Source: Sulfuricurvum kujiense DSM 16994
GTDB taxonomy: Bacteria; Campylobacterota; Campylobacteria; Campylobacterales; Sulfurimonadaceae
DNA: 64,000 nucleotides
Direction: 5' to 3'
Assembly: GCF_000183725.1 (NCBI RefSeq)
Contig: NC_014762.1
Coordinates: forward strand, 2,480,001 to 2,544,000
The notes below the pieces were generated by a model that made no database searches, was not told the origin of the DNA, and was given only the letters and a program-made list of their open reading frames with translations. The position numbers and the translations under genes are program-made. Shown piece after piece: positions 830-29,275 of the stretch. Each line of letters begins with the position of its first letter. The first letter of the stretch is position 1.

Positions 830-2905
830 TTACCATTTTCCCTCTATAGATAAAAATAGCTGTGGTTTTGTGTGCTCTTTATCCACTTGAGTTTGGGTGA
901 TTGCTCCCCCTGCATCGTACAAACGTGACGTTGTCTCTACGGTTGAAGCCGTGATATTTTTCACGTTAAGCTGCACTTTAAACGTTTTATTGAGCCGTTT
1001 ATTGGCATAGAGATCGAGTGTACCGTACCCTTTTTGTGATTGGGATATGAAATATTCCTGCGGATCATCGTATCCGCCGACATAGCGATAAGCCGCTCCA
1101 TAGGTGATTTCAGAAGCTTTTAGAGTGTGATCGAAACCGAGGTTACAGGTAAAATTCGGTGTTTGTAAAAGCTCCCGTTTGACTCCGGTGAGGGTGTTGG
1201 TGAGCGATGAATCTTGCAGCGTTGCATTTGCAAAAAGTCCGAGCCCTGAGATGTACTCTTTGAGGGATTTTTTAAACTCTAATTCAAGACCCCATAACGA
1301 CCCCTCTCCTGCATTTTCAGGGGTTTGCTCATAACGTCCCGATACGGAGTTAAACCGGATGGCATTTTCGATTTTATCATCGATGGTTCGGTAAAACCCG
1401 CCGATGCTCGCTAACCCTTTATCCTCAAAAAAGTGTTCATACCGAAGCTCATAACTCAACGCTTTTTCTTCGGTTAAATTCGGATTTCCGATCACATCGG
1501 GGCGATGGATGCTGTTTTCATCGAGGGTGCTGTTGGTACTCGCCGATAGCTGGCTGAGTCTTGGGAGACGGACGGTTTTAGCGACACTTGCACGAATATT
1601 ATCTGTTGGTGTCACCTGAAACAGTGCATGCAGAGATGGCGCGAAGTAACCCAGATTCGACGTTGCACCATAGTCTCTATTTAATGTCTCATAACGGAGT
1701 CCGGGGGTAATAACGATCCCCTCATTCAATGTATATTCGTCTTGGATATAGAGGGAGAGTTTGTCCTCTTTCATCTGGATTTTATCGTTCACCGAAGTGA
1801 CATCTACCCCGTTTAAAATCCTTGTAGTTTCATCAATCTGATCGCTTCTTTTGAGTTCAAATCCTGCTTTCATAAAATGCTCATCTCGAAGCGCGGTATA
1901 ATCCCCCTGAAAACCGTAAAACCGACTCAATACATAATCGTGCTCTTTACGATTGGTAGCAGAAGGGGTCGATAATGACTCCAAATCGCCTCTCTCTTCG
2001 AACGAGTGGATTTTTGCTTTCCACTCAAAAATATCATCTCCGAATCGGTGTTCCGCCCCCAATGCCGACCAAAGCATCGTGTTGGTAGCATCGTCATGGC
2101 TTTGATAACGGCTCGTCGGTGTAGCTGAGCCTTCGGTTAACGTCGTTGAATCAATCCTATCAGTATTGTGATTAAACGTCACCGATCCGTCATAGAGTAT
2201 TTTAAGGCGTGGAGATGCGGTGTAGTTGAGTTTAGCACGCAGCCCTACGGAGCGATTTTTGCTCCGGTCATCACGCTCTTCATCGGTCTCCAATGCTGCT
2301 TTATCGGTTGCGATGTCGGTCCGATCCTCTTTTCGATTCTCAGATGCGGTAAGGTTCACCATATACGAAACTTTATCGAGCTTCCCTTCTCGTTGAACAT
2401 ACGCGGTTTCGCTCAGATCCTCACCATAGGCACCGAGTGTCACTTTTGCAGAAGTTCGCCCCTCTGCCTTTGGTTTTTTGAGAACGACGTTGACGATTCC
2501 CCCCATCGATTCGGCAGTGTACTCCGCCGAACCGTTGCTCATCACCTCGATCCGCTCGATCATATCGGGAGAGATCTGTTCCAGTGGACTGACACGCTTA
2601 CTCGTTCCCGTCGAGGTCGCTTCGCCATCGATCATTACCACCGTATACCCCTTGCCCGGTGCGCTGGCGGGTCCTTTGCCGTTGGGGATCGTTACCCCCG
2701 GGGTGCGCCGGAGAATCTCTAACGCATTCGCATCCCCGTACTGAGTCAACTCCTCTGCCTTGATGATCCGTTTTGCGATAGAGTTATCCCGTCGCTCATC
2801 GATAGCGGTATAATCCTCCGCTATTTGTATCTTCTCCAACACAACCGTTTCTTCGGCATAAACACTTGAGGCTAAAAGGGCGGCTATTAAAAGACGTTGA
2901 TTCAT
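830..2905 (-). CDS. TonB-dependent receptor, last gene of the left cassette
   Basis: A 691-residue protein with a signal peptide of about 17 residues ending in 'SVYA', a plug domain at roughly residues 40-150 ('LRRTPGVTIPNG', 'RIEVMSNGSAEYTAESMGG') and a long beta-barrel ending 'SIEGKW'. The terminal Trp instead of Phe is a common variant. The gene starts 10 bases after the stop of the BadF/HgdC-type activator gene and has its own AAGGA ribosome site, so it is probably co-transcribed with the reductase genes upstream. Members import chelated metals, siderophores or small organic ligands. The plug resembles the catecholate/ferric-enterobactin type (FepA/IrgA-like), but the substrate is not assigned. 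Confidence 0.9.
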   Translation of the reverse strand: MNQRLLIAALLASSVYAEETVVLEKIQIAEDYTAIDERRDNSIAKRIIKAEELTQYGDANALEILRRTPGVTIPNGKGPASAPGKGYTVVMIDGEATSTGTSKRVSPLEQISPDMIERIEVMSNGSAEYTAESMGGIVNVVLKKPKAEGRTSAKVTLGAYGEDLSETAYVQREGKLDKVSYMVNLTASENRKEDRTDIATDKAALETDEERDDRSKNRSVGLRAKLNYTASPRLKILYDGSVTFNHNTDRIDSTTLTEGSATPTSRYQSHDDATNTMLWSALGAEHRFGDDIFEWKAKIHSFEERGDLESLSTPSATNRKEHDYVLSRFYGFQGDYTALRDEHFMKAGFELKRSDQIDETTRILNGVDVTSVNDKIQMKEDKLSLYIQDEYTLNEGIVITPGLRYETLNRDYGATSNLGYFAPSLHALFQVTPTDNIRASVAKTVRLPRLSQLSASTNSTLDENSIHRPDVIGNPNLTEEKALSYELRYEHFFEDKGLASIGGFYRTIDDKIENAIRFNSVSGRYEQTPENAGEGSLWGLELEFKKSLKEYISGLGLFANATLQDSSLTNTLTGVKRELLQTPNFTCNLGFDHTLKASEITYGAAYRYVGGYDDPQEYFISQSQKGYGTLDLYANKRLNKTFKVQLNVKNITASTVETTSRLYDAGGAITQTQVDKEHTKPQLFLSIEGKW

Positions 2906-2915
2906 ACTATTTTCC

Positions 2916-3725
2916 TTATTCGCTTTCTATATTGCACACATACGCATCACATGCCAATACCGCAGCTCCGTACGATGTCGTGATTTGCGGATACGATGGG
3001 ACAAAGATTTTATGCCCCAGTTCGTTTTCAATCGCACTAACCAATCCGCGGTTTAATGCGGGGCCTCCGTCGAAATAGACGTTCTCTTTCACCCCGACCC
3101 GTTTCACCAGTTTTACAATCCGTTTCGCTATCGAATAATGAACCCCCGATACGATATCTTCGACGCTGTGATTATTCCCCAGCAGTCCGATGATCTCCGA
3201 TTCGGCGAATACGGCGCACGTACTGCTGATCGAAAGAGGTGTCCCCGTCGATTTGAAATGATATTCACTCAGTTCATCCACTCCGATTTCCAGATTCATC
3301 GCGACAACATCGAGAAATTTTCCCGTTCCCGCCGCACATCGGTCGTTCATGGCGAAATTGACGACATTCCCCTCGGTATCGAGAGAAATTGCCTTGCTGT
3401 CCTGTCCGCCGATGTTGATGATCGTTTTGATCTCGCCGTAACTTTTCGCGGATTGTTGCGCCCCGATAGCGTTGGCGGTAATCTCACTGACGTTTTCATC
3501 CGCCTCTTTAAAAAGTTTCCGTCCGTATCCAGTGGCAACCGTATAGACAACCTCGCTCTCATCGATCTTCAATTCACGCAACAATTCGCTGAGTGTTTCT
3601 TGGGCGTATTTGTAAAACATACTCCCGCTCGCGCTGATCTTATGCCCGATTAGATTTTTATTCTCATCCACAATACTAATTTTGATCGCGGTAGAACCGA
3701 TATCAATCCCTGCAAAATATCTCAT
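2916..3725 (-). CDS. BadF/BadG/HgdC-family ATP-dependent activator of a double-cubane-type reductase
   Basis: A 269-residue ASKHA-fold ATPase. The N-terminal phosphate-binding motif 'DIGSTAIK' is at residues 8-15, 'GGQDSKAI' at 106-113, and the two cysteines expected to hold the dimer-bridging [4Fe-4S] cluster are C130 ('NDRCAAGTG') and C170 ('SSTCAVFAESEI'). Members of the family (HgdC, the BadF/BadG components, E. coli YjiL) use ATP to push a low-potential electron into a partner iron-sulfur enzyme. The gene overlaps the partner gene just upstream by 4 bases, which signals translational coupling. The electron donor is inferred to be a ferredoxin or the polyferredoxin of the same cassette. 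The family is clear; the physiological reaction is unknown. Confidence 0.92.
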   Translation of the reverse strand: MRYFAGIDIGSTAIKISIVDENKNLIGHKISASGSMFYKYAQETLSELLRELKIDESEVVYTVATGYGRKLFKEADENVSEITANAIGAQQSAKSYGEIKTIINIGGQDSKAISLDTEGNVVNFAMNDRCAAGTGKFLDVVAMNLEIGVDELSEYHFKSTGTPLSISSTCAVFAESEIIGLLGNNHSVEDIVSGVHYSIAKRIVKLVKRVGVKENVYFDGGPALNRGLVSAIENELGHKIFVPSYPQITTSYGAAVLACDAYVCNIESE

Positions 3726-4993
3726 TTTTTCATTCTCTTTCGATTTTTCAATGATTCTACAAATGCTTCGACCCGCGTCGTAAGCTGTCCGTGCTGTGAG
3801 GGGCTGTAATCGCTTTCTATATAAAGTATCGGGATACCCTCACGCTCCATTGCCGCAAGCACGCTGCGCTGTTCCATCTCATACACCTGACACCCAGCAA
3901 ATGCCTGATAGATCACCCCATCACCTTTATAAGTGTGAACCAGCTGGATGATCCGTCGTATACGGTCGTCATTTTGGGTGAATATCGGGCAGGTACACGC
4001 TTTGAGATATTTGTCCGAAACCGAATCGATCATGTCGTAGAGGTTCCACTCATCCACCGCAACCATGTCGTTGAACATCCGGTTCGAACTGCACGTCTCA
4101 TCGGCGACGATGATCGCATCGCTCTCTTCGATGATGAGGGGGATTTTATAATTGGGGAAAATCGGCGGTGACCCTGTATAAACAATACGCGGGCTCGCTT
4201 TGCCCGCCACATTGACACCGTCATTTACCCGCTGCTCCAACTCTGCGAGCAATTTTTCCACTGCACCGATCCACTCATCTATTTTGTCAAAGAAAAAAGC
4301 ATTGGTTACCAAGAACATATCGACACCTAAAATCGGAACCGCTTTGGCTTTTCGAAATTCGGTGAGCTTGTGATAAAGCGACTGGGCATATCCCACCTTT
4401 TTGATCGCACTCTCCAGATTAGACTTGGTCAGCTTTTTCCCCTGAAATTTAGAGAGCTTCACGGCGAAACTTTTAACACTTTCACGCCAGTAATGGCGGC
4501 TCTCTTCGCTCTCTTTGGTGCGGGGGAATCCGACATCGATCACGGTGTGACCGAAACTTCCGATGATCGCCCCCGCTTTGGTTTTTTGGTCGCACGTCGT
4601 CGGAGAAAATGTGATGTCGGGTTTATCAGAGAAATTGTCCGAGGCGAACCACCCCACGGTCGCTTTGACGAGAGGACACGACTTTTGAGGCAACAGATCA
4701 CTGCCGATCTCGTCATCTGTGTAAAACCCGTTGCACAGCCGGATCGGTATCCCCTCCAGCGCATAAATGATTTCAGAGGGGATTTGGATACACATCGTCC
4801 CGATTTTCGCTTTCCCCTCATGCAACGGTTCATGGCGGCAATAGACCTTTTCAAACAAATCGTAAAAATAGCCCATACTGCGAATAGGGGATTTAAAATC
4901 TTCTTTAAGAGCATTGAGGACACTGATTGCCTCCATCGCCTTGTGACGATTCTGCCTCTGATGCGGCGTTTCTATCGTGAGTTCAGTGTGCAT
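3722..4993 (-). CDS. Double-cubane cluster protein / 2-hydroxyacyl-CoA dehydratase (HgdB, YjiM-like) reductase subunit
   Basis: A 423-residue protein when started at the ATG at 4993, which follows a strong GAGGGGAG ribosome site; a longer in-frame start at 5032 lies inside the previous gene and is less likely. Cysteines at 68, 87, 106 ('CPLVK'), 134 ('TTCDQKTK'), 301 ('ETCSSNR'), 333/335 ('ACTC') and 368 match, as I remember it, the cysteine pattern of E. coli YjiM and of double-cubane cluster proteins, as does the C-terminal 'GQLTTRVEAF'. The family contains 2-hydroxyacyl-CoA dehydratase and benzoyl-CoA reductase subunits; the single-subunit YjiM/DCCP branch carries an Fe-S double cubane and reduces small molecules in vitro. 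Only one such subunit is encoded here, so the DCCP branch is favoured. Natural substrate unknown. Confidence 0.85.
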   Translation of the reverse strand: MHTELTIETPHQRQNRHKAMEAISVLNALKEDFKSPIRSMGYFYDLFEKVYCRHEPLHEGKAKIGTMCIQIPSEIIYALEGIPIRLCNGFYTDDEIGSDLLPQKSCPLVKATVGWFASDNFSDKPDITFSPTTCDQKTKAGAIIGSFGHTVIDVGFPRTKESEESRHYWRESVKSFAVKLSKFQGKKLTKSNLESAIKKVGYAQSLYHKLTEFRKAKAVPILGVDMFLVTNAFFFDKIDEWIGAVEKLLAELEQRVNDGVNVAGKASPRIVYTGSPPIFPNYKIPLIIEESDAIIVADETCSSNRMFNDMVAVDEWNLYDMIDSVSDKYLKACTCPIFTQNDDRIRRIIQLVHTYKGDGVIYQAFAGCQVYEMEQRSVLAAMEREGIPILYIESDYSPSQHGQLTTRVEAFVESLKNRKRMKK

Positions 4994-5993
4994 GTTTCTC
5001 CCCTCTCTGATCCATCGCCATACGAAGAACAAATCCCTCTTTGGTCGATTCGAAAATAGTAGCCCCCATAAAATTGGCTTCCAGACACCCCTCTTCGGGA
5101 CAGGCAGCGACGCATTTGAGACACAACGTGCAATCCTCCGTGACCATATTTTTCGTCGTCACGTCGTCGGCGATTTCGAGGATGTCCATGTCGCAGGCAC
5201 GATAGCAGTCCCCGCATCGGGTACATTTGGAACCGTCTTTATAGAGTTTGAGCAATGCTGGTTTCGAAAAAATATACTGCAATGCCGCCATCGGACAAAA
5301 ATAACAAAAGAACCGCTTTTTAATAAACGATCCGGCTAAAAACAGCCCAGTCATAATCATCCCAATAGTGGTCATGACGATATCGGTTTTCGATGAAAAG
5401 TCGATATAGAACTGGTTAAAGTCCCCCGTAAAAGCGGGAATCATCATCCGTCCGGGACAAATATCACAAAACGGCATCGATAAACCGTTCGGAAGTTTTG
5501 GAATGCCAAATACCGAATTGGCAATCATTACCGGTAAAAGCAACAGCAAAAAGAGCAAAATGTATTTGATACTTTTGATCTTCCCACGATTTGCCCACGA
5601 GTATTCGCTAAAGCGAATTTTCGTTTTTTCTCTAAGCATTGTAAGCCAGTCTTGCATCGTCCCAAGCGGGCAGACGAAACCGCACCACCCTTTGTTCAGT
5701 ACCCAAAACCACACCATAAACATCACCAGTGAGATCAGGAACGCATACCCGGCATATCCCATAAACACATCGATCGGGTGTTTAAGATCGTGCTGGAGCA
5801 TTCCGACATAGCATTTTCCGCCGGTTCCCTCTGCGTTGTAAACACAGGCAAACGTCGGAAGCTTATTTCCCAAATCCAACCCGATATAGCCTCCGTATAC
5901 AATAAAAGCAAATGCGGCAATTTGAAACCAAAACCGAAACCGCACCAGATTCATATTATTGACGGCACGGCGCAAGGAAAATTTATTCTTCAT
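4983..5993 (-). CDS. NapH/CcoG-like membrane polyferredoxin (left cassette)
   Basis: A 336-residue membrane protein with about five transmembrane segments, two CxxxCP motifs typical of the NapH/NosR/CcoG class ('CGFVCP' near residue 106, 'CYFCP' near 232), an extra 'CDICPGR' loop, and two C-terminal [4Fe-4S] ferredoxin motifs ('CTRCGDCYRAC', 'CTLCLKCVAAC'). Relatives move electrons between the quinone pool and periplasmic or cytoplasmic acceptors, or reduce copper (CcoG). A periplasmic loop holds C50, C61, H68 and H72, a pattern shared with the paralogue at 12356. It overlaps the gene before it by 11 bases and the DCCP-like gene after it by 11 bases, so all are one operon. Electron donor to the reductase system is an inference. 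Confidence 0.85.
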   Translation of the reverse strand: MKNKFSLRRAVNNMNLVRFRFWFQIAAFAFIVYGGYIGLDLGNKLPTFACVYNAEGTGGKCYVGMLQHDLKHPIDVFMGYAGYAFLISLVMFMVWFWVLNKGWCGFVCPLGTMQDWLTMLREKTKIRFSEYSWANRGKIKSIKYILLFLLLLLPVMIANSVFGIPKLPNGLSMPFCDICPGRMMIPAFTGDFNQFYIDFSSKTDIVMTTIGMIMTGLFLAGSFIKKRFFCYFCPMAALQYIFSKPALLKLYKDGSKCTRCGDCYRACDMDILEIADDVTTKNMVTEDCTLCLKCVAACPEEGCLEANFMGATIFESTKEGFVLRMAMDQRGEKHAH

Positions 5994-6933
5994 CGAACCA
6001 AATCTCCTTAGGCGTTTTGCGCTTGCGGCGACGGTTATAATAAAGCCCCAATGAAAATACCAGCATCACTCCGATCACGGTAGCAAACGCAAGCGTTTTG
6101 GATTCGTATTCGAGCGGCGTATCGCCAAACGAGAGAGGGATACTCATCGTATAGCGCACCGATTGATAAGACGCTCCATGATAGAGACCCGATTCGTTAA
6201 CATCATATTTGACGCTTAAGAGGAGCTTTTCGGAGCGCTTTTTGTCACCTTTCTCTTGCTCATAGGTGCTTTTGGGAATCTCCACCATCACGACACCCTC
6301 ATCGTTAGGTTTGAGGGTGTTTACCCAACCGCTCTCTAACTCCGCAACGACAGGAACATTTTTTAATAATTCCCCTTTGTAATAGACTTTCAGGGGAATA
6401 ATATCGCCGACATATAAACAACAATTGACATGATGTTTATGGATTGTTTTCTCCATCATCAACTGAAACGGCAATTGCGAAAGCGGTTCGCTAAGATACC
6501 GTGAATCAGAAGTCTTCCCACGCACTTCTTTTGTCCATGAGCATGAGAGATTCCCCTCTTTATTGTAGATGCGGTGCGAAGAAAGCTGAACATTGAATAC
6601 ACCGTCCACTACCTCTTGACGCTTTAAGAAGAGATGATAATTCCCTTTATATTGAGGAGAAAAGGTGATTTTTGAGCCTGAAAGATTGTGCTCTTCGATC
6701 TTGCCGTCCATATCGCGGATATACAACACCGAACCGCTCAAATCTTTCAGTTTTTCATTTTCCTGAAGTGAGCCCGATTTTACAGACAATTCTTTTTGAG
6801 GGGTTGATCCTAGCTTCGCTTCACAGCATTTTTTCTTTTTGGCTTCATCGAGCCAGAGTGTTTCAGCAGAAAGCACTGAAACACATACAATTAACAGTAA
6901 ATAAATACTCTTTTTTAACATATTATGATCCAT
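5983..6933 (-). CDS. Periplasmic DUF4198-like protein with C-terminal membrane anchor (left cassette)
   Basis: A 316-residue protein with a signal peptide ('LLLIVCVSVLSA'), a Cys/Lys patch just after it ('KKKKCCEAK'), a HKHH cluster followed by CC near residues 168-174, an Ig-like beta domain, and one transmembrane helix near residues 285-303 followed by a basic tail ('NRRRKRK'). The layout and the central domain match the weak DUF4198/COG5266 pattern seen better in the paralogue at 11545; some members accompany nickel or cobalt uptake. The start codon overlaps the stop of the TonB receptor gene by one base (TGATG). A role as a periplasmic metal-binding relay between receptor and polyferredoxin is inferred. 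Family assignment for this copy is moderate. Confidence 0.65.
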   Translation of the reverse strand: MDHNMLKKSIYLLLIVCVSVLSAETLWLDEAKKKKCCEAKLGSTPQKELSVKSGSLQENEKLKDLSGSVLYIRDMDGKIEEHNLSGSKITFSPQYKGNYHLFLKRQEVVDGVFNVQLSSHRIYNKEGNLSCSWTKEVRGKTSDSRYLSEPLSQLPFQLMMEKTIHKHHVNCCLYVGDIIPLKVYYKGELLKNVPVVAELESGWVNTLKPNDEGVVMVEIPKSTYEQEKGDKKRSEKLLLSVKYDVNESGLYHGASYQSVRYTMSIPLSFGDTPLEYESKTLAFATVIGVMLVFSLGLYYNRRRKRKTPKEIWFDEE

Positions 6934-9137
6934 CAGAAGGTCATAATCAGTTCAGCGGTGACATTTCTTCCCGGCAATAATGAATACTGATAGACTGTTT
7001 CATCGGTCAGATTGTTCACGGAAAGGGAAGCTTTAAGCCCTTTGTTAATCACATAATCAACTTTCGCGTTCGTCATCCAATATGCATCATAACTTCCGAA
7101 TACCCCTCCGACATCCGCAGCGTTTGACTCTGTCGAGAATACTTCATCAGAATATTTTGTTTCTACCAATCCCGACCAATTTCCGTATTTCGCCGAAAGT
7201 GCCCCACTCCACATTCGTGTCGGAGTTTGTGCTAGTTTATTCCCTACCGTTGTAGGATCAGCTTCATTTTTTAACACTTCAGAATCGATATAAGAGTATG
7301 ATAAATCAAGATTTAGCCATGACGTTAAATTCACATTGGCAGTAAGTTCAATACCTTGAACACGTGCTTCACCCGCATTCGATTTCTCCTGATGGGTGGC
7401 ATCGATTCTTTTACCGTAAATCATATCTTTCAGCGTGGTTTGGTAGAGTGAAACTCCCGTTTTAAGATCCGTAGTAGCTCTCCATTCACCCCCTATTTCA
7501 TACGTCGTTGCAACTTCAGGTTTCAGATTCGGATTACTTTGGTAATATGTACTACAACAGTAGAGTGTCCCATATAATTCATAATTATCCGGTGCGCGAA
7601 ATGATTTTCCGGCAGATGCACGCAATGTAATATCCTCTATCGGCAAATAGACCACCGATAATTTTGGGCTAAATGCGTTGTCGCTTCGTTTATCGAAGGT
7701 ATTATCATAGGCTCCCGTACCGATTTTAAAGTTGTCTCCTTCCGTCTCCCATCGATCGTACCGTCCACCTGCATAAACGGTAAATGTATCACTTAAAGCA
7801 ATCTCATCTTGGATGAATATTGAACTTGTTGCTGATTTTCCGTAAGCTCCTTCCGTAGCGGAGCCCGTTACTGAATCTTCATCTCTCCAATTTGTAAGAT
7901 TATAAACTTTACGATCCAACTCGGTATTACGCTGATTCAATCCGACAGTGATGTAATTCATATCGCTCAATGCAAATGCGGTTTGTAGCAAAATATCGAT
8001 TGCTTCGCTCGGATTTTCCTTTCTGGTCCCCACACCGGAATAAAATGTAGCGCCCGTCCCTTTTTCGGTATACTGATTGTCGATTTTTGCTTTTGCTATC
8101 TCCATTTTAGTCTTATATTGATTAGCTATTTCTCCCTCATAACCTATAAAAACACGGGTACTCCCTTGCTCCAAAGGGGAGGTATTGGCAAAATCGCTCT
8201 CAGCCAGACTAATCTTATTGCTACCATCAATGCTCATACTTGTATTGCTGCTAACGACATTACCGCTTGAATCACGTAAATAAGAATGAAAATCGCCTTG
8301 ATCGGTTTTATAAACGTTGTAATTGATTCCTCCGTAGAGTTTCGATTTAGAATCTAAATCATAGGTCAGTTTTAATGTGGCATTGTTTTGTGTCCATGCC
8401 ATTTCACCTTTATCCCCAACAGTATAGGCGGACGCTCCGGCTGGAGTTGTTGTCGGTATACCACCCGTAACAGGTGTTATTCCCGCAGTTGTACCAGGAG
8501 TTTTTACAGCGAACTCATTCACATATCCGTCACGATCTTCTCGGCTGAGTCCAAGTGTTACACCTATTCCATTTTCATAATGATTGCGGTGATACAGTGC
8601 GAAATCGTTCCCTGCCGCATCTCCAAACCCTCTTTTATATCGCACGGTTGTTTCTGGTTTATTCGATTTCTTTGTTATGATATTGATAACCCCTCCGATA
8701 GCATTACTCCCATATAATGATGAAAATGCGCCCGGTACTACTTCGATGCGCTCGACATCATCCGTCAATACGGTTCTAAAGTCGACTTTGCTGGCAAACC
8801 CGTCCACCAATGGCACCCCATCCACCAAAACTGCCGTTCTTGAGGCATTCATACCCCGTAGTGTAAAACTCCCTGCTCCAGTCCCCTGACTCATTTGACC
8901 GTTCATCGGTGTCCCCATGCTAAGACCCGGAACCATCAATAATGCATCGCTAACACGCGAGACATTTCTTTGCTTTAATTCATCATTTGAAATGACCGTC
9001 ACCGAAGCAGGCGAATCGGACAAGGCTTGTTCCGTTTTAGTTGCCGTTATCGATACATTCCCTAAATCAGCTACTTCATTAGCATAAGCGCTGCTGCAAA
9101 ACAGTACAGCGGCCAGAGATATCTTAATATAAGACAT
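6933..9137 (-). CDS. TonB-dependent receptor, first gene of the left cassette
   Basis: A 734-residue receptor: signal peptide ending 'SSAYA', a TonB-box-like 'VSITATKTEQ' near residue 28, plug domain about residues 38-155 ('PGLSMG', 'LRGMNASRTAVLVDGVPL', 'GSNAIGGVINIITKK'), then a 22-strand-type barrel with 'LRASAGKSFRAP' and the final 'ELIMTF'. The plug and barrel look like the BtuB/CirA group. A CC pair sits in an extracellular loop near residue 528 ('LYCCSTYY'), which could bind a metal or form a disulfide. It opens the minus-strand operon and is divergent from the receptor at 9277, with a dyad operator in between. Ligand unknown. Confidence 0.92.
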   Translation of the reverse strand: MSYIKISLAAVLFCSSAYANEVADLGNVSITATKTEQALSDSPASVTVISNDELKQRNVSRVSDALLMVPGLSMGTPMNGQMSQGTGAGSFTLRGMNASRTAVLVDGVPLVDGFASKVDFRTVLTDDVERIEVVPGAFSSLYGSNAIGGVINIITKKSNKPETTVRYKRGFGDAAGNDFALYHRNHYENGIGVTLGLSREDRDGYVNEFAVKTPGTTAGITPVTGGIPTTTPAGASAYTVGDKGEMAWTQNNATLKLTYDLDSKSKLYGGINYNVYKTDQGDFHSYLRDSSGNVVSSNTSMSIDGSNKISLAESDFANTSPLEQGSTRVFIGYEGEIANQYKTKMEIAKAKIDNQYTEKGTGATFYSGVGTRKENPSEAIDILLQTAFALSDMNYITVGLNQRNTELDRKVYNLTNWRDEDSVTGSATEGAYGKSATSSIFIQDEIALSDTFTVYAGGRYDRWETEGDNFKIGTGAYDNTFDKRSDNAFSPKLSVVYLPIEDITLRASAGKSFRAPDNYELYGTLYCCSTYYQSNPNLKPEVATTYEIGGEWRATTDLKTGVSLYQTTLKDMIYGKRIDATHQEKSNAGEARVQGIELTANVNLTSWLNLDLSYSYIDSEVLKNEADPTTVGNKLAQTPTRMWSGALSAKYGNWSGLVETKYSDEVFSTESNAADVGGVFGSYDAYWMTNAKVDYVINKGLKASLSVNNLTDETVYQYSLLPGRNVTAELIMTF

Positions 9138-9180: not shown

Positions 9181-9230
9181 GTGTTACATTAGTGTTAACT
9201 TAAACCGATGAATTAACACAAATGTAACAC
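9181..9230. promoter_or_regulatory. Inverted-repeat operator between the two divergent TonB receptor operons
   Basis: The 18-base arm at 9181-9198 (GTGTTACATTAGTGTTAA) is repeated in inverse at 9213-9230 with one mismatch, around a 14-base spacer. Inside each arm the hexamer GTGTTA occurs twice at 11-base spacing, the phasing used by OmpR/PhoB-type response regulators. The position, between two start codons 139 bases apart, fits an operator controlling both cassettes. The regulator is not encoded nearby. Confidence 0.7.
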
Positions 9231-9276: not shown

Positions 9277-11535
9277 ATGGTAAATCCCCGCCGTATCACC
9301 CACAGCATCTTACTCTCCTCTTTGATTGCAGGATCATGCTTCGGATCAGAAAATCTCGGTATTATCAATGTCGATTCGACAACGATTGATGACCGGTTCG
9401 ACTCGAAACAAACGGAAGTTTCAAATACATCGACGATCAGCGGCGAGAGTGTTGATCAAGCCCATATTGAAAATATTCAGCAAGTGCTCAATAAAATTCC
9501 CGGACTCACAACCGAGGTAACGGGGGGAGACAAATTTAAGCTTCACATTCGCGGAGTCGAAAACCAAAGATATATGGGGGAAAAACCGGGTGTTGCCGTC
9601 GTTATCGACGGTGTTCCTGTTTTTGAACGGACCGGAAGCGTCAATATCGATTTGGACAATATCGAATCGATTAAAGTGGTAAAAGGGGGAGCTTCCTACC
9701 TGTTCGGCGAAGATGCGCTAAGCGGTGCCGTCATTATCACGACGAAAAAAGGGGCAAAAAACAGTTACAGCGCCGTAGGGGCTGAAACGGGAAGTTTCGG
9801 ATTCCGAAAATATCTTGCACGTGCCGGCTACGCCAATGACAAATTGAACTTTTACGTTCAAGGGTCAAAACGGACAACCGACGGCTATTGGGAAAACGGG
9901 GGATATGACAACAAATATCTTAACTCAAAATTTCAATACTATATCGATGAAACGAGTGACATAACCGCCGGTATCGAACTCTCTGACCGTATGAAAGACA
10001 GCCACGGTACCGTCAAAGGGGCAAGCGAAGCGGAAAGCAACCCTGAAAGCGCTTATAACGGCACCGGAGATCGGGATTATTCCCGTAAATTTGACGTATC
10101 GTTGGCCAAATATTTTGTAACCTACGCCAAAGAGCTGAACTCAAACTCCAACCTCCTTGTAAACGTCTACCAATACAATGACGATACCAATTTCATCAGT
10201 GCCCCGATCAAATACGATCTAACCGGAGCCTCCGTAACCGATGACGATGCGTACGCCACCAACAACGACTATTTTCAAATCCAAAGAGGGATCAAAAGTG
10301 AGTTGAGAACTTCGGGGAATAGTTTTGCAACCCTTTTCGGGATCGACCTGCGGGATAATTATTATGAGAATAAAACCAATATCCAGCAGAGCTATTGCAC
10401 ACGTTTGAACTTTGCCGGAACCGCCTGTTATTCCGATGCCTATAAAGTATATGCGGGGACTATTACCGGAGATGATAAAACCGATGAAAACGTCTATGCT
10501 CTCTACGGTGAAGTCAAATATGCCCTCAATGATGATTTTGTCGTAACAACGAATGCCCGATATGACCGTATCGAAATGGATTATGATGATGGCTTGCACG
10601 ACATCAGACTCGACAAAAAATTTGATGTCGGTTCGTATCGATTAGGGTCCACGTATGTGTTGAACGATGCCACATCACTGTATGCCAACGTTTCGACCGG
10701 CTTTAGAACACCTACCGTCTCTCAGCTATTCTCCGGCGATATCGACCCGACCAATACCAAAGTCGAAAGCAATCACGACTTAAAACCGGAAGTATCTTAT
10801 AACTATGAGATAGGGCTTCGAGGGAATACCGCCTTCTTCGATTACGATGTCGCGGCATTCTTGATCAACAGAAATAATTACATTATGGCGAATGTCGGAC
10901 AATACTCATCAGTCGATCCGTCAAATCCTTCTTACAGCGTAACGCAGTACGATAACATCGGCGGAATGCGAAACAAAGGGATCGAACTCGCCTTAAACAC
11001 CGACAGAAAAAAAAGTGTTTATCTCGATATAGCCTATTCGTATATCGATGCAAAATTTACCGAATATGAAAATTTCAATCTGACCCTCGGAAATTCGTAC
11101 GGGCAATACAAATCGGGAGCAGCATTTACAAACCCGAGCAAACAATATACCATCGAGCACTACGATCTTACAGGAAATACCGTCCCTCGCGTTCCGAAAC
11201 ATACCCTGAACATCAGTCTCAATTACAACTACAACGACAACCTGCTTTTAAGCTCGGAAATCAATGCGAAATCGAGCTACTACGCCGATGAGATGAACAA
11301 AATCGAAATTGCGGGCCAAGCGACGTTAAACCTTCTTGCAAACTATGTTTACAAAACGGATAAAAGCAAATGGGAGTTTTTCGCCCGTGTTGATAACGTA
11401 TTCGATAAGTTCTATTACAACACGGCACGATCAAGCGGTGATGCCAACAATGACGGTGTGTTTAATTCCGAAGACTTATCCATCACCGTCAATCCGGGAC
11501 GTGTCTATACCGCAGGCTTGTCAATCAAATTTTAA
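9277..11535 (+). CDS. TonB-dependent receptor, first gene of the right cassette
   Basis: A 752-residue receptor with AAGGA ribosome site, signal peptide ending near 'AGSCFGS', plug domain about residues 45-165 ('IQQVLNKIPGL', 'IRGVENQ', 'GASYLFGEDALSGAVIITTKK') and a barrel ending 'GLSIKF'. The segment 'STGFRTPTVSQLF' and the 'ATLNLLANYVYK' and 'VDNVFDKFYYNT' segments are typical of siderophore-class receptors. Residues 721-734 form a dockerin/EF-hand-like loop ('GDANNDGVFNSEDL') with Asp or Asn at positions 1, 3, 5 and 12, placed in the last extracellular loop. It begins the plus-strand operon that runs on into a DUF4198-like protein and a polyferredoxin. Ligand not known. Confidence 0.92.
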   Translation: MVNPRRITHSILLSSLIAGSCFGSENLGIINVDSTTIDDRFDSKQTEVSNTSTISGESVDQAHIENIQQVLNKIPGLTTEVTGGDKFKLHIRGVENQRYMGEKPGVAVVIDGVPVFERTGSVNIDLDNIESIKVVKGGASYLFGEDALSGAVIITTKKGAKNSYSAVGAETGSFGFRKYLARAGYANDKLNFYVQGSKRTTDGYWENGGYDNKYLNSKFQYYIDETSDITAGIELSDRMKDSHGTVKGASEAESNPESAYNGTGDRDYSRKFDVSLAKYFVTYAKELNSNSNLLVNVYQYNDDTNFISAPIKYDLTGASVTDDDAYATNNDYFQIQRGIKSELRTSGNSFATLFGIDLRDNYYENKTNIQQSYCTRLNFAGTACYSDAYKVYAGTITGDDKTDENVYALYGEVKYALNDDFVVTTNARYDRIEMDYDDGLHDIRLDKKFDVGSYRLGSTYVLNDATSLYANVSTGFRTPTVSQLFSGDIDPTNTKVESNHDLKPEVSYNYEIGLRGNTAFFDYDVAAFLINRNNYIMANVGQYSSVDPSNPSYSVTQYDNIGGMRNKGIELALNTDRKKSVYLDIAYSYIDAKFTEYENFNLTLGNSYGQYKSGAAFTNPSKQYTIEHYDLTGNTVPRVPKHTLNISLNYNYNDNLLLSSEINAKSSYYADEMNKIEIAGQATLNLLANYVYKTDKSKWEFFARVDNVFDKFYYNTARSSGDANNDGVFNSEDLSITVNPGRVYTAGLSIKF

Positions 11536-11544
11536 GGAGACAAG

Positions 11545-12363
11545 ATGAAAAAAGCAGTTTTGACTCTCATTGCCGCCGCGACCCTTTGGGGATACGGCGA
11601 CGGTGCCGTTTATTGGGCTCCTCACGGATGCGATGAAGGAAAAGCGGCCGCATCCAAACACGGCGGCCACGGTAAAGGGGAAAGCGCCATGTTCGCCCTC
11701 ATGAACAGAGATGGAAACGCTTCGGCGCAGCTGATCCTTCCGGATCTATCTGCTAAGCCTTTGAGCTTTAAACGCAATACCGTAATGCTTCCAAAACCTC
11801 CGATGGGAGGGTATTACGCGGTAGTGGCAGAAGGTAACGGCACCAACACCGTATTTAGCGCCGTACGCTATCTTAGCCTTCAAGGGCGCCCTTCCAAAAT
11901 CTCTCCGACAAAACTCACTGCTCTGAGCAAATCCGTATTGGAAATCGTCCCCGATCCTCTGCACCGTGAGCATGACCGATATACCGCTTCCAAATCGTAC
12001 CGCTTTGTTCTCCGTTTTCACGATCAGGTGCTGGCGAACACCGCCGTATCCTTGCAGACGCATAACACTCCCGCACAAACCGTTACGACGGATGGTGCGG
12101 GAAAATTCACGATCACCCTTCCCGACGATTTTAAAAATGTACGGATCGGCAGAAGCGAAAACAAACCCTCTGAATTCCTCCTTACCGCCCAATACCGTGA
12201 GGGTGAAACACTTTATCAAAGTTCTCTGAGTATGCCCTATTCGCTTAATCCGAACGATTACTGGCAATCTCAAAGCTACGGAGCCGGAGCTATTTTTATC
12301 GGCTTCTTAGGGGGGATTTTCCTCTATCGACGAAGCAAGACCAAAGGAGCAAAACGTGGATAA
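11545..12363 (+). CDS. Periplasmic DUF4198-like protein with His-rich N-terminus and membrane anchor (right cassette)
   Basis: A 272-residue protein: signal peptide of about 20 residues, a Cys/His stretch ('APHGCDEG', 'KHGGHGKG') near residues 26-45, a beta-rich domain with the DUF4198-style 'LEIVPDPL' near residue 132 followed by 'TDGAGKFTITLPDD', and one transmembrane helix near residues 247-262 with a basic cytoplasmic tail. COG5266/DUF4198 members include periplasmic proteins of nickel and cobalt uptake. It starts 9 bases after the TonB receptor and overlaps the polyferredoxin gene by 8 bases. It has the same place in the cassette and the same topology as the protein at 5983, so the two are taken as paralogues. 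Metal binding is an inference from the His/Cys residues. Confidence 0.75.
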   Translation: MKKAVLTLIAAATLWGYGDGAVYWAPHGCDEGKAAASKHGGHGKGESAMFALMNRDGNASAQLILPDLSAKPLSFKRNTVMLPKPPMGGYYAVVAEGNGTNTVFSAVRYLSLQGRPSKISPTKLTALSKSVLEIVPDPLHREHDRYTASKSYRFVLRFHDQVLANTAVSLQTHNTPAQTVTTDGAGKFTITLPDDFKNVRIGRSENKPSEFLLTAQYREGETLYQSSLSMPYSLNPNDYWQSQSYGAGAIFIGFLGGIFLYRRSKTKGAKRG

Positions 12364-13357
12364 ATTGTTAACGTTGACGGCACTTAGACGGGTCATCCAG
12401 CTCACCGCTTTTGTCTTTTTTGTCTATGGGGCAATGATTTTCGCTACCTTTTACACCGGGGACAAACTCACCCAAAGTCTCCCCGCCCTCTCATGCGCCT
12501 ATGATCAGAGCGGGGGAGATTTTTGTGCGCTGATCCCATTACAGCATCAGATGGATCACCGAGTGTCGAGTATCTTCACCCAAGGTGAAAAAGTTCTGCC
12601 TGCATTGATGGGAACCCTCATCACACTCGGAACCGTTGCCGTACTCATCCTTATACTCAATAAAGCCTTTTGCGGATGGCTCTGTCCGCTCGGATTTTTC
12701 CAAGAGACTATAGGGATGATCGGAACCAAACTGGGCCTCACTCAGATGGGAACTCTTTCACGTGAAACGATTACGAAAATCCGCCCGATCAAATGGTTTA
12801 TATTTCTCTTTTTGGTACTCATTCTCCCCCTTTTGACCGGTATCGGCTTTCTCGGGCATGAATGGGGAAATCCGTATTGCTCGATCTGCCCCAGCCGTAT
12901 CATGACGACCGCCATGACGGGAGATATGTCGCAAGTCTATATTTCTCAGGCGAATTGGGGCTATTTTGCCCTCTCACTGATTGCCGATTTGCTGTTCGGA
13001 CTGATGATCGCTCTGGCACTGTTCGTAAGAGCACCTTTCTGTCGTATCTGTCCGATCCTGCCGATGCAGACATTGTTTAAAAAGATCGGGCTGCTCCGCC
13101 TTGTGAAAAACGGCTCGTCCAGCTGCGAATCGTGCGGTAACTGCGTCAAAGCGTGTCCTATGGATATTTACGAGATACAAGAATCGGCGGAAAATAAAAA
13201 TATTACCCATGCCGACTGTACACTCTGCGGCCGATGCATCGAGTTCTGCCCGCATGACGGTGTTATGAATTTCAAATACGGCCCTGTTACGATTCTCTCT
13301 TCGTCCAAAGAAGGATTTAAAAAACGGACAAAAATTGATAAATGGTGGAGAGGCTAA
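12356..13357 (+). CDS. NapH/CcoG-like membrane polyferredoxin (right cassette)
   Basis: A 333-residue membrane protein with a GTG start chosen because AAAGGAG lies just upstream. It has about five transmembrane segments, 'CGWLCP' near residue 104, 'CSICPSR' near 176, 'CRICP' near 226, and two C-terminal ferredoxin motifs ('CESCGNCVKAC', 'CTLCGRCIEFC'). The first periplasmic loop carries C47, C57, H64 and H68, the same Cys-Cys-His-His pattern as the paralogue at 4983. Relatives hand electrons from quinol to redox partners (NapH, NosR) or reduce Cu(II) (CcoG). Here it probably reduces the cargo of the TonB receptor or a periplasmic partner; this is inference from context. Confidence 0.85.
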   Translation: MDKLLTLTALRRVIQLTAFVFFVYGAMIFATFYTGDKLTQSLPALSCAYDQSGGDFCALIPLQHQMDHRVSSIFTQGEKVLPALMGTLITLGTVAVLILILNKAFCGWLCPLGFFQETIGMIGTKLGLTQMGTLSRETITKIRPIKWFIFLFLVLILPLLTGIGFLGHEWGNPYCSICPSRIMTTAMTGDMSQVYISQANWGYFALSLIADLLFGLMIALALFVRAPFCRICPILPMQTLFKKIGLLRLVKNGSSSCESCGNCVKACPMDIYEIQESAENKNITHADCTLCGRCIEFCPHDGVMNFKYGPVTILSSSKEGFKKRTKIDKWWRG

Positions 13358-13360
13358 GTC

Positions 13361-14011
13361 GTGGAAGCGATGACCCTACTCTCTTTATTCCTTGTTGCTC
13401 TTTCTTACGGCGCCACCGCATGCATGCTTACCTGCATGCCGCTGCTCTCACCGATTCTTTTGGCGAACAGCGCAACGCGGCAGCAAAGCCTTAAAGTGCT
13501 CCTCCCTATCAGTCTGGGTCGTATCAGCGGCTATATCGTACTATCGCTTATCGCCTTTGCAGGTTCCTCTCTCCTAAAAAATATCATAGCCGACAAAACA
13601 CTGATAGGATATTTGCTGGGGGCACTTACCATTTTTCTCGCTGGGCGCTTATGGTTTTCACTAAAAGCCGGTTCATCGTGCTGCAGCTCAACGCCCCAAC
13701 AAACGCCTCAAGGAAATTTCGCCCTATTCTTTACCGGACTTCTTCTTTCTATGTCATTGTGTGCCCCCGTCATAACCATGATGACACTGAGTGCCGCTAC
13801 CCATTCCATAGGATGGGCGATATCCTACGGAGCTGTATTCGGCCTGGGTGCGACATTGCTATGGTTTCTCTTTTTTTCCGTCGTTCTCACCGCTATTCTC
13901 AAAGAGAGCCTCGTCCATCTCTCACGCTATCGAGGATTTCTTCAACACGCGGCACCGATTCTTCTCGCAGGGATCGGAATCGCAATTATAAAAGGATGGA
14001 TATACCTATGA
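13361..14011 (+). CDS. SafE/CcdA-like polytopic membrane protein (COG2836 type)
   Basis: A 216-residue protein with about six transmembrane helices. The first helix contains 'CMLTCMP', a CxxxC pair, and a 'SSCCSS' cluster lies in the central loop near residues 103-108. This resembles the sulfite exporter TauE/SafE-CcdA superfamily, whose COG2836 branch often stands next to ccoG/ccoI copper genes. It starts at GTG 13361, 3 bases after the polyferredoxin stop; an ATG three codons later is an alternative. It could carry reductant or a thiophilic metal across the membrane. Family placement is moderate, function open. Confidence 0.65.
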   Translation: MEAMTLLSLFLVALSYGATACMLTCMPLLSPILLANSATRQQSLKVLLPISLGRISGYIVLSLIAFAGSSLLKNIIADKTLIGYLLGALTIFLAGRLWFSLKAGSSCCSSTPQQTPQGNFALFFTGLLLSMSLCAPVITMMTLSAATHSIGWAISYGAVFGLGATLLWFLFFSVVLTAILKESLVHLSRYRGFLQHAAPILLAGIGIAIIKGWIYL

Positions 14012-14709
14012 CCGCCGCACGAAAATCATTTCTCCTCTCTTTAGTGTTTCATACCCTGATGGGTTCATTGGCTTTTTTTGTTTTGATCCAAATGCGCACT
14101 CCGCCCCCTATGGTGAAAATTCCACTCCAACACATAACATTAGTCTCTTTGAGCGATAGTGCTCCCATTCCTAAAACTGAGAAAATTGTCTCACCGAAGC
14201 CTGATATTACACCGCCCATGCCGATTAAACCGCTAACGTCTCAGCCGACCCCTTCCGCCAAAGCGCAAAACTCAAAACCAACTCCCATTCAAACCGCGCC
14301 GAGTCAAACACTCTCCCCGGTTCAAACCGTATCGGCACCGCCATCATCTCAACCGAGTGTTCAAAATGCACCGGCTGCCGAAGCGGTCCAATCTCCCGCA
14401 AAACCTAAAATCGATATTGCGGCGGAAAAGAGGGCTTTTTTTGCCTCTTTGCGTTCAACGATTCAAAACCATTTGCGCTATCCGAGCGCCGCACGCCGCA
14501 GAGGAATGGAAGGAGAAGTCGGAGTCCGTTTCAGCCTTTCGAACAATGGAACCATCAATGCCATATCGATCCGACACGGAGCAGAGATTTTTCATAATTC
14601 GGCAAAAACAGCCGTTGCTTCGGCTTCCGGAATCAACGTGCCGAAAAACCTCGTAGACTCGTTGCCGATGGAGATAGAACTAACCTTGGAGTTCAGACTC
14701 AACAGCTGA
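14008..14709 (+). CDS. TonB-like energy transducer protein
   Basis: A 233-residue protein started at the ATG that overlaps the previous stop by ATGA; an ATG 12 bases upstream lacks a ribosome site, and the much longer open frame upstream lies inside the previous gene. It has one N-terminal transmembrane helix (about residues 8-27), a Pro/Ser/Thr/Gln-rich periplasmic stretch (about 33-140) and a C-terminal TonB domain ('YPSAARRRGMEGEVGVRF' near residue 155). It would couple ExbB/ExbD energy to the receptors of these cassettes. No exbB or exbD is seen in the window, so those must lie elsewhere. Confidence 0.88.
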   Translation: MTAARKSFLLSLVFHTLMGSLAFFVLIQMRTPPPMVKIPLQHITLVSLSDSAPIPKTEKIVSPKPDITPPMPIKPLTSQPTPSAKAQNSKPTPIQTAPSQTLSPVQTVSAPPSSQPSVQNAPAAEAVQSPAKPKIDIAAEKRAFFASLRSTIQNHLRYPSAARRRGMEGEVGVRFSLSNNGTINAISIRHGAEIFHNSAKTAVASASGINVPKNLVDSLPMEIELTLEFRLNS

Positions 14710-26562: not shown

Positions 26563-26967
26563 TTATAAACACCCTTTGAAAAATGATTTTTTCGGCGGAG
26601 GAGGCGCTTTAAATTCTGTTGCCGCAATCGTATTGGTCTTCTCATCAAGAATACCGACGATGACAACGCCGTTTTTATTCATCCCCTCACCTAACTCAGA
26701 AACTTTAAGTTTCGAAGTATCGATATTGTACACTTTCCCGCTGTTGTGCTGGAAAAGAGCCAATTTCGGGTGGGTAGTTTCACCAGGCTGAATCTTTTTA
26801 AAACAACCGTCTGATCCACATGTATAGTTCTCCAAATAACAATCAGAGAATGCACCTTGCGCGGCACATCCTGGTGTTGTTAAGAGCCCTTCGAACTCTT
26901 GCCCTTCCGGTTCAGCTGCAAAAGCACTGAAAACGAGTGCAGCAGCAATCAAGATAATCTTTTTCAT
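26563..26967 (-). CDS. Small secreted Cys-rich protein of the Mo-enzyme operon
   Basis: A 134-residue protein with a signal peptide ('LVFSAFAAE'), four cysteines in a short span (C33, C43, C50, C55; 'TTPGC', 'SDCYLENYTCGSDGC') and a fifth near the C-terminus ('FKGCL'). The middle part ('FQHNSGKVYNIDTSKLKV', 'GVVIVGILDEKTNTI') looks like a small beta-barrel or OB-like fold. Not recognised as a named family. It starts where the cytochrome gene ends (1-base overlap), so it is probably a periplasmic accessory or minor subunit of the enzyme. Disulfides or metal binding are possible. Confidence 0.75.
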   Translation of the reverse strand: MKKIILIAAALVFSAFAAEPEGQEFEGLLTTPGCAAQGAFSDCYLENYTCGSDGCFKKIQPGETTHPKLALFQHNSGKVYNIDTSKLKVSELGEGMNKNGVVIVGILDEKTNTIAATEFKAPPPPKKSFFKGCL

Positions 26968-29266: not shown

Positions 29267-29275
29267 CTAAACCCC

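Follow-up and report, generated by a model that had tools for sequence, protein, structure and literature searches.

The closest described relatives of the reductase reported here are DCCP with its activator (6ENO, 7YYL) and E. coli YjiM/YjiL, which likewise pair a single-subunit PF06050 protein carrying all of the cluster cysteines with a BadF-type ATPase. The biological function of DCCPs is described as unknown, and the only reactions known for DCCP are reductions of small compounds, acetylene, azide and hydrazine among them (PMC11971306). The class I benzoyl-CoA reductase BzdNO and the 2-hydroxyacyl-CoA dehydratase HadBC have the same fold and an ATP-dependent activator, and BzdN also carries [8Fe-9S] (PMC11971306), but both are heterodimers that act on CoA thioesters.

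A second group of relatives comes from metal uptake. Genes for DUF4198 proteins adjoin TonB receptor genes, and the one such protein tested binds Ni with a Kd of 18 nM (PMC12537917). The reduction of iron in the periplasm has been connected with DUF4198 and PepSY proteins together (PMC8238504, PMC11870441), and in Caulobacter CCNA_03155-03159, hiuABC, FoxB and VciB an inner-membrane reductase frees the metal, together with a receptor and sometimes a DUF4198 protein (PMC8238504, PMC11870441, PMC12424826). The copper TonB systems CrtA/CrpH and the copper reductase CcoG (Bordetella, Rhodobacter) combine TonB import with a membrane metal reductase, as is proposed for the locus below, but neither an ATPase nor a double-cubane protein is named for them in the available part of the source (PMC13038864). 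Our search of the open-access literature (PMC) found no paper describing the gene set reported here, in agreement with the first-pass annotation of this DNA, which knew of no such system.

A reductase operon and its divergent neighbour

We analyzed a 64,000-nucleotide stretch of Sulfuricurvum kujiense DSM 16994 (NC_014762.1, positions 2,480,001 to 2,544,000), hereafter the window, from whose first base all coordinates are counted. Open reading frames and profile searches recovered, on the minus strand, all six genes that had been proposed to form an operon. They are part of a larger unit with a divergent operon (9277-14709) for a TonB receptor, a DUF4198-like anchored protein, a NapH-like protein, a DsbD_2 protein and TonB, and the intergenic operator is common to both operons.

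6933-9137, minus strand: TonB-dependent receptor with which the operon begins (PF00593 and PF07715)
5983-6933, minus strand: ANCH, an anchored periplasmic protein with a signal/transmembrane helix, two periplasmic beta-sandwich domains and a C-terminal transmembrane helix
4983-5993, minus strand: NapH-like membrane polyferredoxin (PF12801, PF13237)
3722-5032, minus strand: double-cubane-type reductase (PF06050, 4.8e-90)
2916-3725, minus strand: BadF/HgdC-type ATPase activator (PF01869; TIGR00241 above cut-off)
830-2905, minus strand: second TonB-dependent receptor (PF00593/PF14905)
9181-9230, no strand: divergent operator with two TTAACAC-N4-GTAACAC boxes in inverted orientation (at 9181-9198 and 9213-9230)
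9277-11535, plus strand: divergent TonB-dependent receptor (PF00593 and PF07715)
11545-12363, plus strand: another anchored periplasmic protein, of 272 aa and distantly similar to ANCH
12356-13357, plus strand: second NapH-like polyferredoxin, in one blast cluster with the gene at 4983-5993
13361-14011, plus strand: DsbD_2 (CcdA/DsbD-like) membrane protein (PF13386, 8.1e-16)
13651-14709, plus strand: TonB protein (PF03544, 5.3e-11)

As first described, the six genes are joined by overlaps or short gaps: the junctions overlap, in gene order, by 1, 11, about 11 (with the reductase taken from 4993) and 4 bp, and a 10-bp gap separates the activator gene from that of the second receptor. This sixth gene falls outside the range of 2916-9137 originally given for all six, and it is not constant across the layouts of related loci. 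The reductase frame as listed opens with TTG at 5032; going by its homologues, the true start is likely the ATG at 4993. The TonB frame overlaps the DsbD_2 gene, so its true start is probably further in. The 272-aa protein was without a Pfam or NCBIfam match, and its look-alikes in G217 and G338 match the ANCH profile weakly and have a similar gene order.

A DCCP-like reductase and its activator

In a phylogenetic tree the reductase belonged to a clade beside DCCP/YjiM, split from HadC, MbdN and BzdN with support of 97/95 (long branches flagged), and its fold agreed with that of DCCP at a TM of 0.86-0.90 and 31-32% identity. On NF040772, the DCCP equivalog, it scored 327.8 bits, under the cut-off of 350 that other clade members straddle (L049, 328; L104, 358.9; L082, 369.4). 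By sequence, then, it represents a DCCP-like sister clade and is not filed as a DCCP equivalog. Because of its place in the tree, and because it is the only PF06050 match in a profile search of the genome, it is on sequence criteria of the single-subunit type and not a CoA dehydratase, which sets it apart from BzdNO and HadBC. The first-pass annotation had named a YjiM/HgdB-like reductase with a BadF/HgdC ATPase and doubted CoA-thioester dehydration; both judgements stand, with the reductase outside the true CoA dehydratases and no second PF06050 subunit found in the genome. The activator scored 233.5 bits on TIGR00241 (cut-off, 125.4), and its C130 and C170, presumably the residues that bind the bridging cluster, were present in 66 of 66 homologues.

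The reductase has nine cysteines, as counted earlier (65, 81, 100, 119, 147, 314, 346, 348 and 381), of which seven, rather than the proposed seven or eight, are at family places. C81, C119, C147, C314, C348 and C381 are at the ligand places of the BzdN [8Fe-9S] cluster in 81 of 81 clade members, and Cys100 is common to DCCP; Cys65 and Cys346 were without a counterpart in the reference sequences compared. From the invariant BzdN ligand places, an [8Fe-9S] cluster is predicted. What distinguishes the clade from DCCP/YjiM is the extra invariant Cys346 and altered neighbours of the cluster cysteines: N101, Q149, S315, N317 and C346 adjoin them in sequence and are invariant in the clade yet unlike DCCP, while Q149 and S315, and also R98, are common to BzdN.

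These residues suggest one conserved reaction distinct from that of DCCP. They thereby favour an alternative, put forward in the first-pass annotation, in which the reductase has as its cytoplasmic substrate an organic compound taken up from outside (a corrinoid, or one that is unsaturated or N-N bonded) and the envelope proteins do no more than import it or feed electrons in. The small-molecule reductions of DCCP (PMC11971306) and the resemblance of the receptor to BtuB, among others, are in keeping with it. However, the operon has no conserved inner-membrane importer for a compound of this kind, the predicted fold of ANCH is that of a metal binder, and a quinol-linked polyferredoxin would be ill suited to reduce a BadF activator; we therefore regard this alternative as unlikely. 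The solved chains nearest to the first receptor (Cir, PhuR, the enantio-pyochelin receptor and BtuB) do not discriminate, and reading the substrate from them was rejected.

Co-inheritance and regulation of the gene set

We compared 62 non-redundant full-flank loci of the reductase clade, a set that omits short stretches (L001-L031, L112-L123), the E. coli locus and also L088 and L158, duplicates when judged on 120 bases from the core of the reductase gene, and that retains close relatives; gene calls came from a simple script for open reading frames, and many loci are metagenome bins. The NapH-like polyferredoxin and ANCH were each found by tblastn in 62 of 62 loci, where cross-matches are possible since NapH and long ANCH share the polyferredoxin region, although in most loci the separate clusters and the layouts place the two genes next to each other. 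The activator was present in 58, the DsbD_2 protein in 57 and a TonB receptor in 56 (missing from 6), and ExbB, ExbD and TonB in 25, 23 and 21. In contrast, 20 ordinary DCCP stretches, picked from 46 such matches and with flanks of ∼5 kb (one with 1 kb downstream) against ∼9 kb for most clade loci, had the activator in all 20, a TonB receptor in none and weak NapH/ANCH matches in one, so that these stretches, but for those weak matches, lack the fixed TonB/ANCH/NapH neighbourhood of the clade. Among 397 genomes of the class, 27 have the reductase clade, and these 27 and no others gave strong matches to the ANCH profile, which was built from reductase-linked loci and favours that subfamily. The co-occurrence counts confirm a gene association beyond chance, and the import-plus-reduction set first noticed in the window is thus conserved in other genomes.

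The operator repeat is PhoB/OmpR-like and occurs at many loci. TTAACAC-N4-TTAACAC (≤3 mismatches) was found upstream in 38 of 71 stretches, compared with a mean of 3.65 and a maximum of 8 in shuffles (n = 40), the motif being derived from the very stretches counted and related loci being counted separately. Fur regulation was rejected: the highest scores for Fur-like boxes, at 9-14 of 19 bases, were inside the shuffle range (7-15), which differs from the Fur-regulated PepSY_TM analogues. A PhoB/OmpR-like operator, together with the 17 response-regulator genes of cluster c10, spread over 15 loci, and an RND permease in 20 of the 62 loci, accompanied here and there by MFP and OMF, would fit detoxification or respiration of a metal or metalloid complex by import, reduction and RND export as a defence. 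But RND was not found in the other 42 loci, and active TonB-dependent import of a toxin is unlikely, which leaves this explanation very improbable.

ANCH and a probable metal cargo

ANCH of the window was without a Pfam match (E ≤ 0.001, and also E ≤ 0.01), PF10670 included, and the ANCH profile gave no useful match among PDB sequences. DUF4198 matches were obtained for 15 of 28 short and mid forms (E ≤ 0.01) and 23 of 34 long forms (E ≤ 0.001) among its homologues, and its AF2 model (pLDDT 78) aligned to Zcp with Z 17.1 and to a Ni-bound DUF4198 protein with Z 15.9, the next unrelated entries being at ∼6. The early description as DUF4198-like is thus borne out by homologues and model fold, though not by a Pfam match of the protein itself, and we claim a predicted DUF4198/Zcp-like fold and nothing beyond. 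Most DUF4198 proteins have an N-terminal His; this ANCH has none after the signal/anchor helix and instead has Cys/His clusters (KKCC, HKHHVNCC), and mapping of the Zcp metal ligands failed to place them. Because the modelled fold is of a metal-binder type, it speaks for a metal rather than a corrinoid or an N-N bonded compound, and we lean towards a metal complex as the cargo, with Cu or Fe the favoured metal. Among the substrates originally suggested, a metal chelate remains a candidate, whereas a corrinoid or N-N bonded molecule is disfavoured.

In all 34 long forms ANCH is fused to a Fer4_5 polyferredoxin, and 13 of these, but neither the other 21 nor the window's own form, have a NosL domain. 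By analogy with NosR/NosL, the super-reductase could instead serve metalloprotein or cofactor maturation, resetting or inserting the metal site of an enzyme in the periplasm, for which the imported metal would be the raw material. We consider this quite unlikely, as the loci had no constant partner metalloenzyme and neither NosZ nor NifH follows the distribution of the system. A copper supply for N2O reductase was rejected, as was a NifH link, in a rough comparison of 27 positive genomes spanning six families with 21 negatives all of the window's own family: NosZ was over cut-off in 14 of 27 and 10 of 21, and NifH in 12 of 27, with a partial match in one further genome, and 12 of 21.

A proposed model of ATP-driven reductive metal acquisition

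The polyferredoxin, which like the NapH/NosR-like trans-membrane electron carriers is of the Fer4_5 type, has a CX3CP, two CX2CP and two 4Fe-4S motifs, extra Cys50 and Cys61, and Gln67-His68. These cysteines, Cys50 and Cys61 included, and Q67/H68 were found in 60 of 60 length-filtered homologues encoded next to the reductase, a set that excludes 7 encoded elsewhere, so both membrane and cytoplasmic Fe-S motifs are kept. It is not NapH proper, with 68.1 bits on that equivalog (far under the cut-off of 234) and no FMN-binding domain among the matches listed. CcoG we take to be a related polyferredoxin. Judging from redox potentials, a NapH-type protein linked to quinol would be unable on its own to reduce a BadF-type activator; for this reason electron flow outward, from cytoplasm to periplasm, seems likelier than inward, although we place it somewhat short of even odds. 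Thus the uptake-plus-reduction line first read from the gene order has its import and reduction genes conserved, but the electron entry through the membrane ferredoxin that it included would be better replaced by outward supply.

We propose, with a probability of about 0.42, that the locus serves the reductive acquisition of a metal or metallophore, dependent on TonB and driven by ATP. Chelated metal would enter the periplasm through the receptor, and the membrane-anchored DUF4198/Zcp-fold protein would bind the metal or its complex there. In the cytoplasm the BadF-type ATPase would feed single electrons, one by one, into the double-cubane reductase, from which they would pass through the membrane polyferredoxin to the periplasmic side and reduce a metal complex closed to ordinary reductants. 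The DsbD_2 protein, whose family has Cys19, Cys23 and Cys130 (L041 numbering) in 55 of 55 sequences, may keep periplasmic cysteines reduced, and in some genomes the RND pump may expel the emptied carrier. The need for an ATP-driven reductant is argued on energetic grounds. That this nitrogenase-like reductase works as a cytoplasmic electron pump, with the polyferredoxin sending super-reduced electrons across the inner membrane to free metal from tight chelates, is doubtful; it would be a novel route to such release. Besides the fold of ANCH and the DUF4198 precedents, the metal reading is favoured by the NosL domain of 13 long ANCH forms, the PepSY_TM match in one operon and the RND, ExbB, ExbD and TonB genes of part of the loci. 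Points against the metal reading are the Fur boxes at background, the lack of a constant inner-membrane metal importer in the operons, the loci without a receptor, the window form and 21 long forms without NosL, the missing N-terminal His and unplaced Zcp ligands of the window's ANCH, and the restriction of known DCCP substrates to small molecules.

Such a system would differ from the haem PepSY iron-reduction systems in its donor, a polyferredoxin with an ATP-driven double-cubane reductase. If the electron-pump reading is true, a free-standing DCCP-like protein would for the first time have a physiological role, and metallophore reductases would have their first member gated by ATP. If the proposal is correct, cells would spend ATP on nitrogenase-grade reductant for release of a nutrient metal, which would extend the chemistry of TonB-dependent uptake as well as the part played by double-cubane clusters. 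A DCCP-like clade with invariant co-inherited partners makes the question of DCCP function testable, as metal acquisition.

Other features of the loci

A PepSY_TM match (Pfam) was found in one operon (L035), and loci of the TonB/DUF4198/PepSY_TM type exist in the host's class (L190, L192 and L193, PepSY being read from sequence). Anti-phage defence was rejected, the four core proteins having no PADLOC match. Among known RNAs, rRNA and tRNA alone reached the gathering score in the window. A separate leader-RNA candidate, which matched no known RNA family in 3 loci (of 6 then known to have it), lies upstream of some related receptors.

A conserved gene set around the reductase

The first-pass annotation had placed six genes in one operon. 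All six were present as described. Pfam and NCBIfam identified the PF06050 reductase and its BadF-type activator, the polyferredoxin and the receptors; the sixth gene (a receptor) lies just outside the stated span.

830-2905, receptor
2916..3725 (-), activator, a BadF/HgdC-type ATPase
3722..5032 (-), double-cubane-type PF06050 reductase
4983..5993 (-), NapH-like membrane polyferredoxin
5983..6933 (-), ANCH, an anchored periplasmic protein
6933..9137 (-), TonB-dependent receptor
9181..9230, operator between the reductase operon and a divergent operon (9277-14709)

The observation that these genes form a set was confirmed in other genomes. We kept 80 of 92 loci with relatives on GTDB contigs, those most similar to the window's coming from Sulfuricurvum MAGs, and searched 397 genomes of the same class, 70 of which had a match at E <= 1e-10 and 27 of these the close clade (identity >= 57%). 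The recurring order was receptor, often DsbD_2, ANCH, polyferredoxin, reductase and activator, then DsbD_2, RND or ExbB/ExbD/TonB. Among 93 non-redundant loci, 62 had full flanks (upstream >5 kb, downstream >3 kb), and these contained NapH and ANCH without exception (62/62 each), the activator in 58, DsbD_2 in 57, a receptor in 56, ExbB in 25, ExbD in 23, TonB in 21 and RND in 20. Control stretches with ordinary DCCPs had the activator in 20 of 20, a receptor in 0 of 20, and in a single stretch, L144, weak matches to NapH and ANCH of 70 and 54 bits. The set was also common to relatives in Pseudomonadota and Acidobacteriota bins, and no paper describing such a set was listed in searches of open-access literature. 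A contig binned as Petrimonas (L045) holds a Campylobacterota-like copy, 78% identical; its coverage is low and it is probably misbinned. Candidate links of the system to NosZ and NifH showed no association. Downstream in the window (26967-32188) lies a large oxidoreductase set of molybdopterin type, with proteins of 970, 365 and 400 aa, named by eye only.

The four full-flank reductase loci with no adjacent activator (L039, L040, L146 and L149) come from genomes that each carry another reductase locus (L055, L108, L147 and L150, respectively). The activator was seen in the layouts of L055 and L108, and L147 and L150 were not among the loci flagged as being without it. In each of these four two-locus genomes the activator gene adjoins only one locus, and therefore one activator may serve both reductases.

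The reductase groups beside DCCP

The closest solved proteins by sequence were DCCP (E 1.7e-64), then BzdN, HadC and MbdN. The six BzdN cysteines given in a 2025 paper (PMC11971306) as ligands of the [8Fe-9S] cluster map to C81, C119, C147, C314, C348 and C381 of the window reductase. In an alignment of 100 length-filtered sequences (84 distinct: 81 clade members and 3 ordinary DCCPs), each of the six was invariant in the clade (81/81), as were C100, also common to DCCP, and C346, absent from all eight reference sequences; C65 was kept in 77 of 81. A tree of 27 hand-picked rows (19 clade members, 3 ordinary DCCPs and 5 references) placed the clade next to DCCP, YjiM and the ordinary DCCPs of Campylobacterota, separated from BzdN/HadC/MbdN at 97/95 support; long branches were flagged. 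The AlphaFold model (pLDDT 89.9) gave TM 0.86-0.90 against DCCP, 0.76 against BzdN and 0.72 against HadC (the latter two query-normalised). Because the 2.8-Mb genome carries a single PF06050 match, no partner subunit was found, as the annotation had held. Clade scores straddle the NF040772 cut-off, and we call the clade a DCCP-like sister clade.

In all 60 reductase-adjacent polyferredoxins (seven non-adjacent homologues left out), the cysteines of the five motifs, the pair Cys50/Cys61 and Gln67-His68 were conserved; activators kept C130 and C170 (66/66), and DsbD_2 proteins kept CX3CxP and a third Cys (55/55).

ANCH and the direction of electron flow

A 28-row ANCH profile made from reductase-linked loci matched strongly (E <= 8.1e-48) in all 27 class genomes with the reductase clade and in none of the remaining 370; seven others matched weakly and only in part (E 1.4e-9 to 7.2e-6). 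Because the 27 genomes, which span six families, are kin to one another, they do not represent 27 independent events. The window ANCH model (mean pLDDT 78) shows two beta-sandwich domains between an N-terminal helix and a C-terminal membrane helix. Its best structural match was Zcp (Z 17.1, 3.3 A, 201 residues), solved with Zn, Cu and Co, followed at Z 15.9 by a DUF4198 protein with bound Ni; all others were near Z 6. Long ANCH forms (750-919 aa) carry an extra N-terminal polyferredoxin (Fer4_5, 34/34), and 13 of 34 a NosL domain.

Nickel binding is reported for one DUF4198 protein, and members of the family adjoin TonB receptors (PMC12537917). In Caulobacter, two DUF4198 genes rank with those most strongly induced by iron limitation (PMC3751524). 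DUF4198 genes also occur together with PepSY membrane proteins that are linked to iron reduction in the periplasm (PMC8238504, PMC11870441). Weak ANCH matches in the same class led to operons of receptor, DUF4198 and PepSY-like protein (L190, L192 and L193), one with FeoA/FeoB-like genes; PepSY and Feo names were read from sequence, and DUF4198 was confirmed in L192.

The annotation had read the operon as uptake plus reduction with electrons entering through the membrane ferredoxin, an interpretation partly supported overall. Because the reductase is accompanied by a membrane polyferredoxin and by a periplasmic protein with a metal-binder fold, we prefer outward to inward electron flow. We infer that electrons would pass from activator to double-cubane reductase, to polyferredoxin and on to a metal complex that ANCH holds. 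For some chelates the reduction potential is lower than that of NAD(P)H; this would account for the ATP cost. Once emptied, the carrier could be recycled by an RND pump, for which pyoverdine recycling is a parallel. L144, a separate locus where a DCCP lies next to a NapH-like protein and a periplasmic binding protein, fits the same pairing. Several observations argue against this mechanism: the loci had no constant inner-membrane importer and no Fur box, the window ANCH had no NosL domain, the canonical DUF4198 ligands were not found, and 6 of 62 full-flank loci had no receptor.

L144 (4246-8657) thereby shows a further DCCP gene set: an ordinary DCCP and activator adjoin a NapH-like polyferredoxin, a solute-binding protein of the periplasm and a radical-SAM protein whose NifB score is 330.5 against a cut-off of 343.65.

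Regulation and a leader element

Of 71 upstream stretches, 38 contained a TTAACAC-N4-TTAACAC box (<=3 mismatches), a motif read from these same stretches; across 40 shuffles the mean was 3.65 and the maximum 8. In the window the box is present as an inverted pair in the region that separates the divergent operons. Its 11-bp repeat is typical of PhoB/OmpR-type regulators; response regulators lie near some loci (cluster c10), one a Pfam-confirmed OmpR type. The loci showed no Fur signal.

A leader element lies upstream of TonB receptors in L037, L039, L040, L048, L052 and L054, and also in L112, L116-L118, L121 and L123; in L122 the downstream gene is not a receptor. It was not found in the window, and three loci tested had no Rfam match. 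In L195 (5061-8557), from a genome without the reductase clade, the element occurs with a TonB receptor and a stand-alone protein that resembles the polyferredoxin at the N terminus of long ANCH. Of the 397 class genomes, a model built from five training sequences matched 11 at E <= 0.01, four of these only at 0.003-0.008. The loop, AGTTTGG(C/T)GAC, is near-invariant, and its closing stem varies in sequence between genomes, with 10-15 uninterrupted bp in 9 of 13 distinct instances and only 7-8 in four (shuffled mean 6.2). We regard the element as a candidate new structured RNA.
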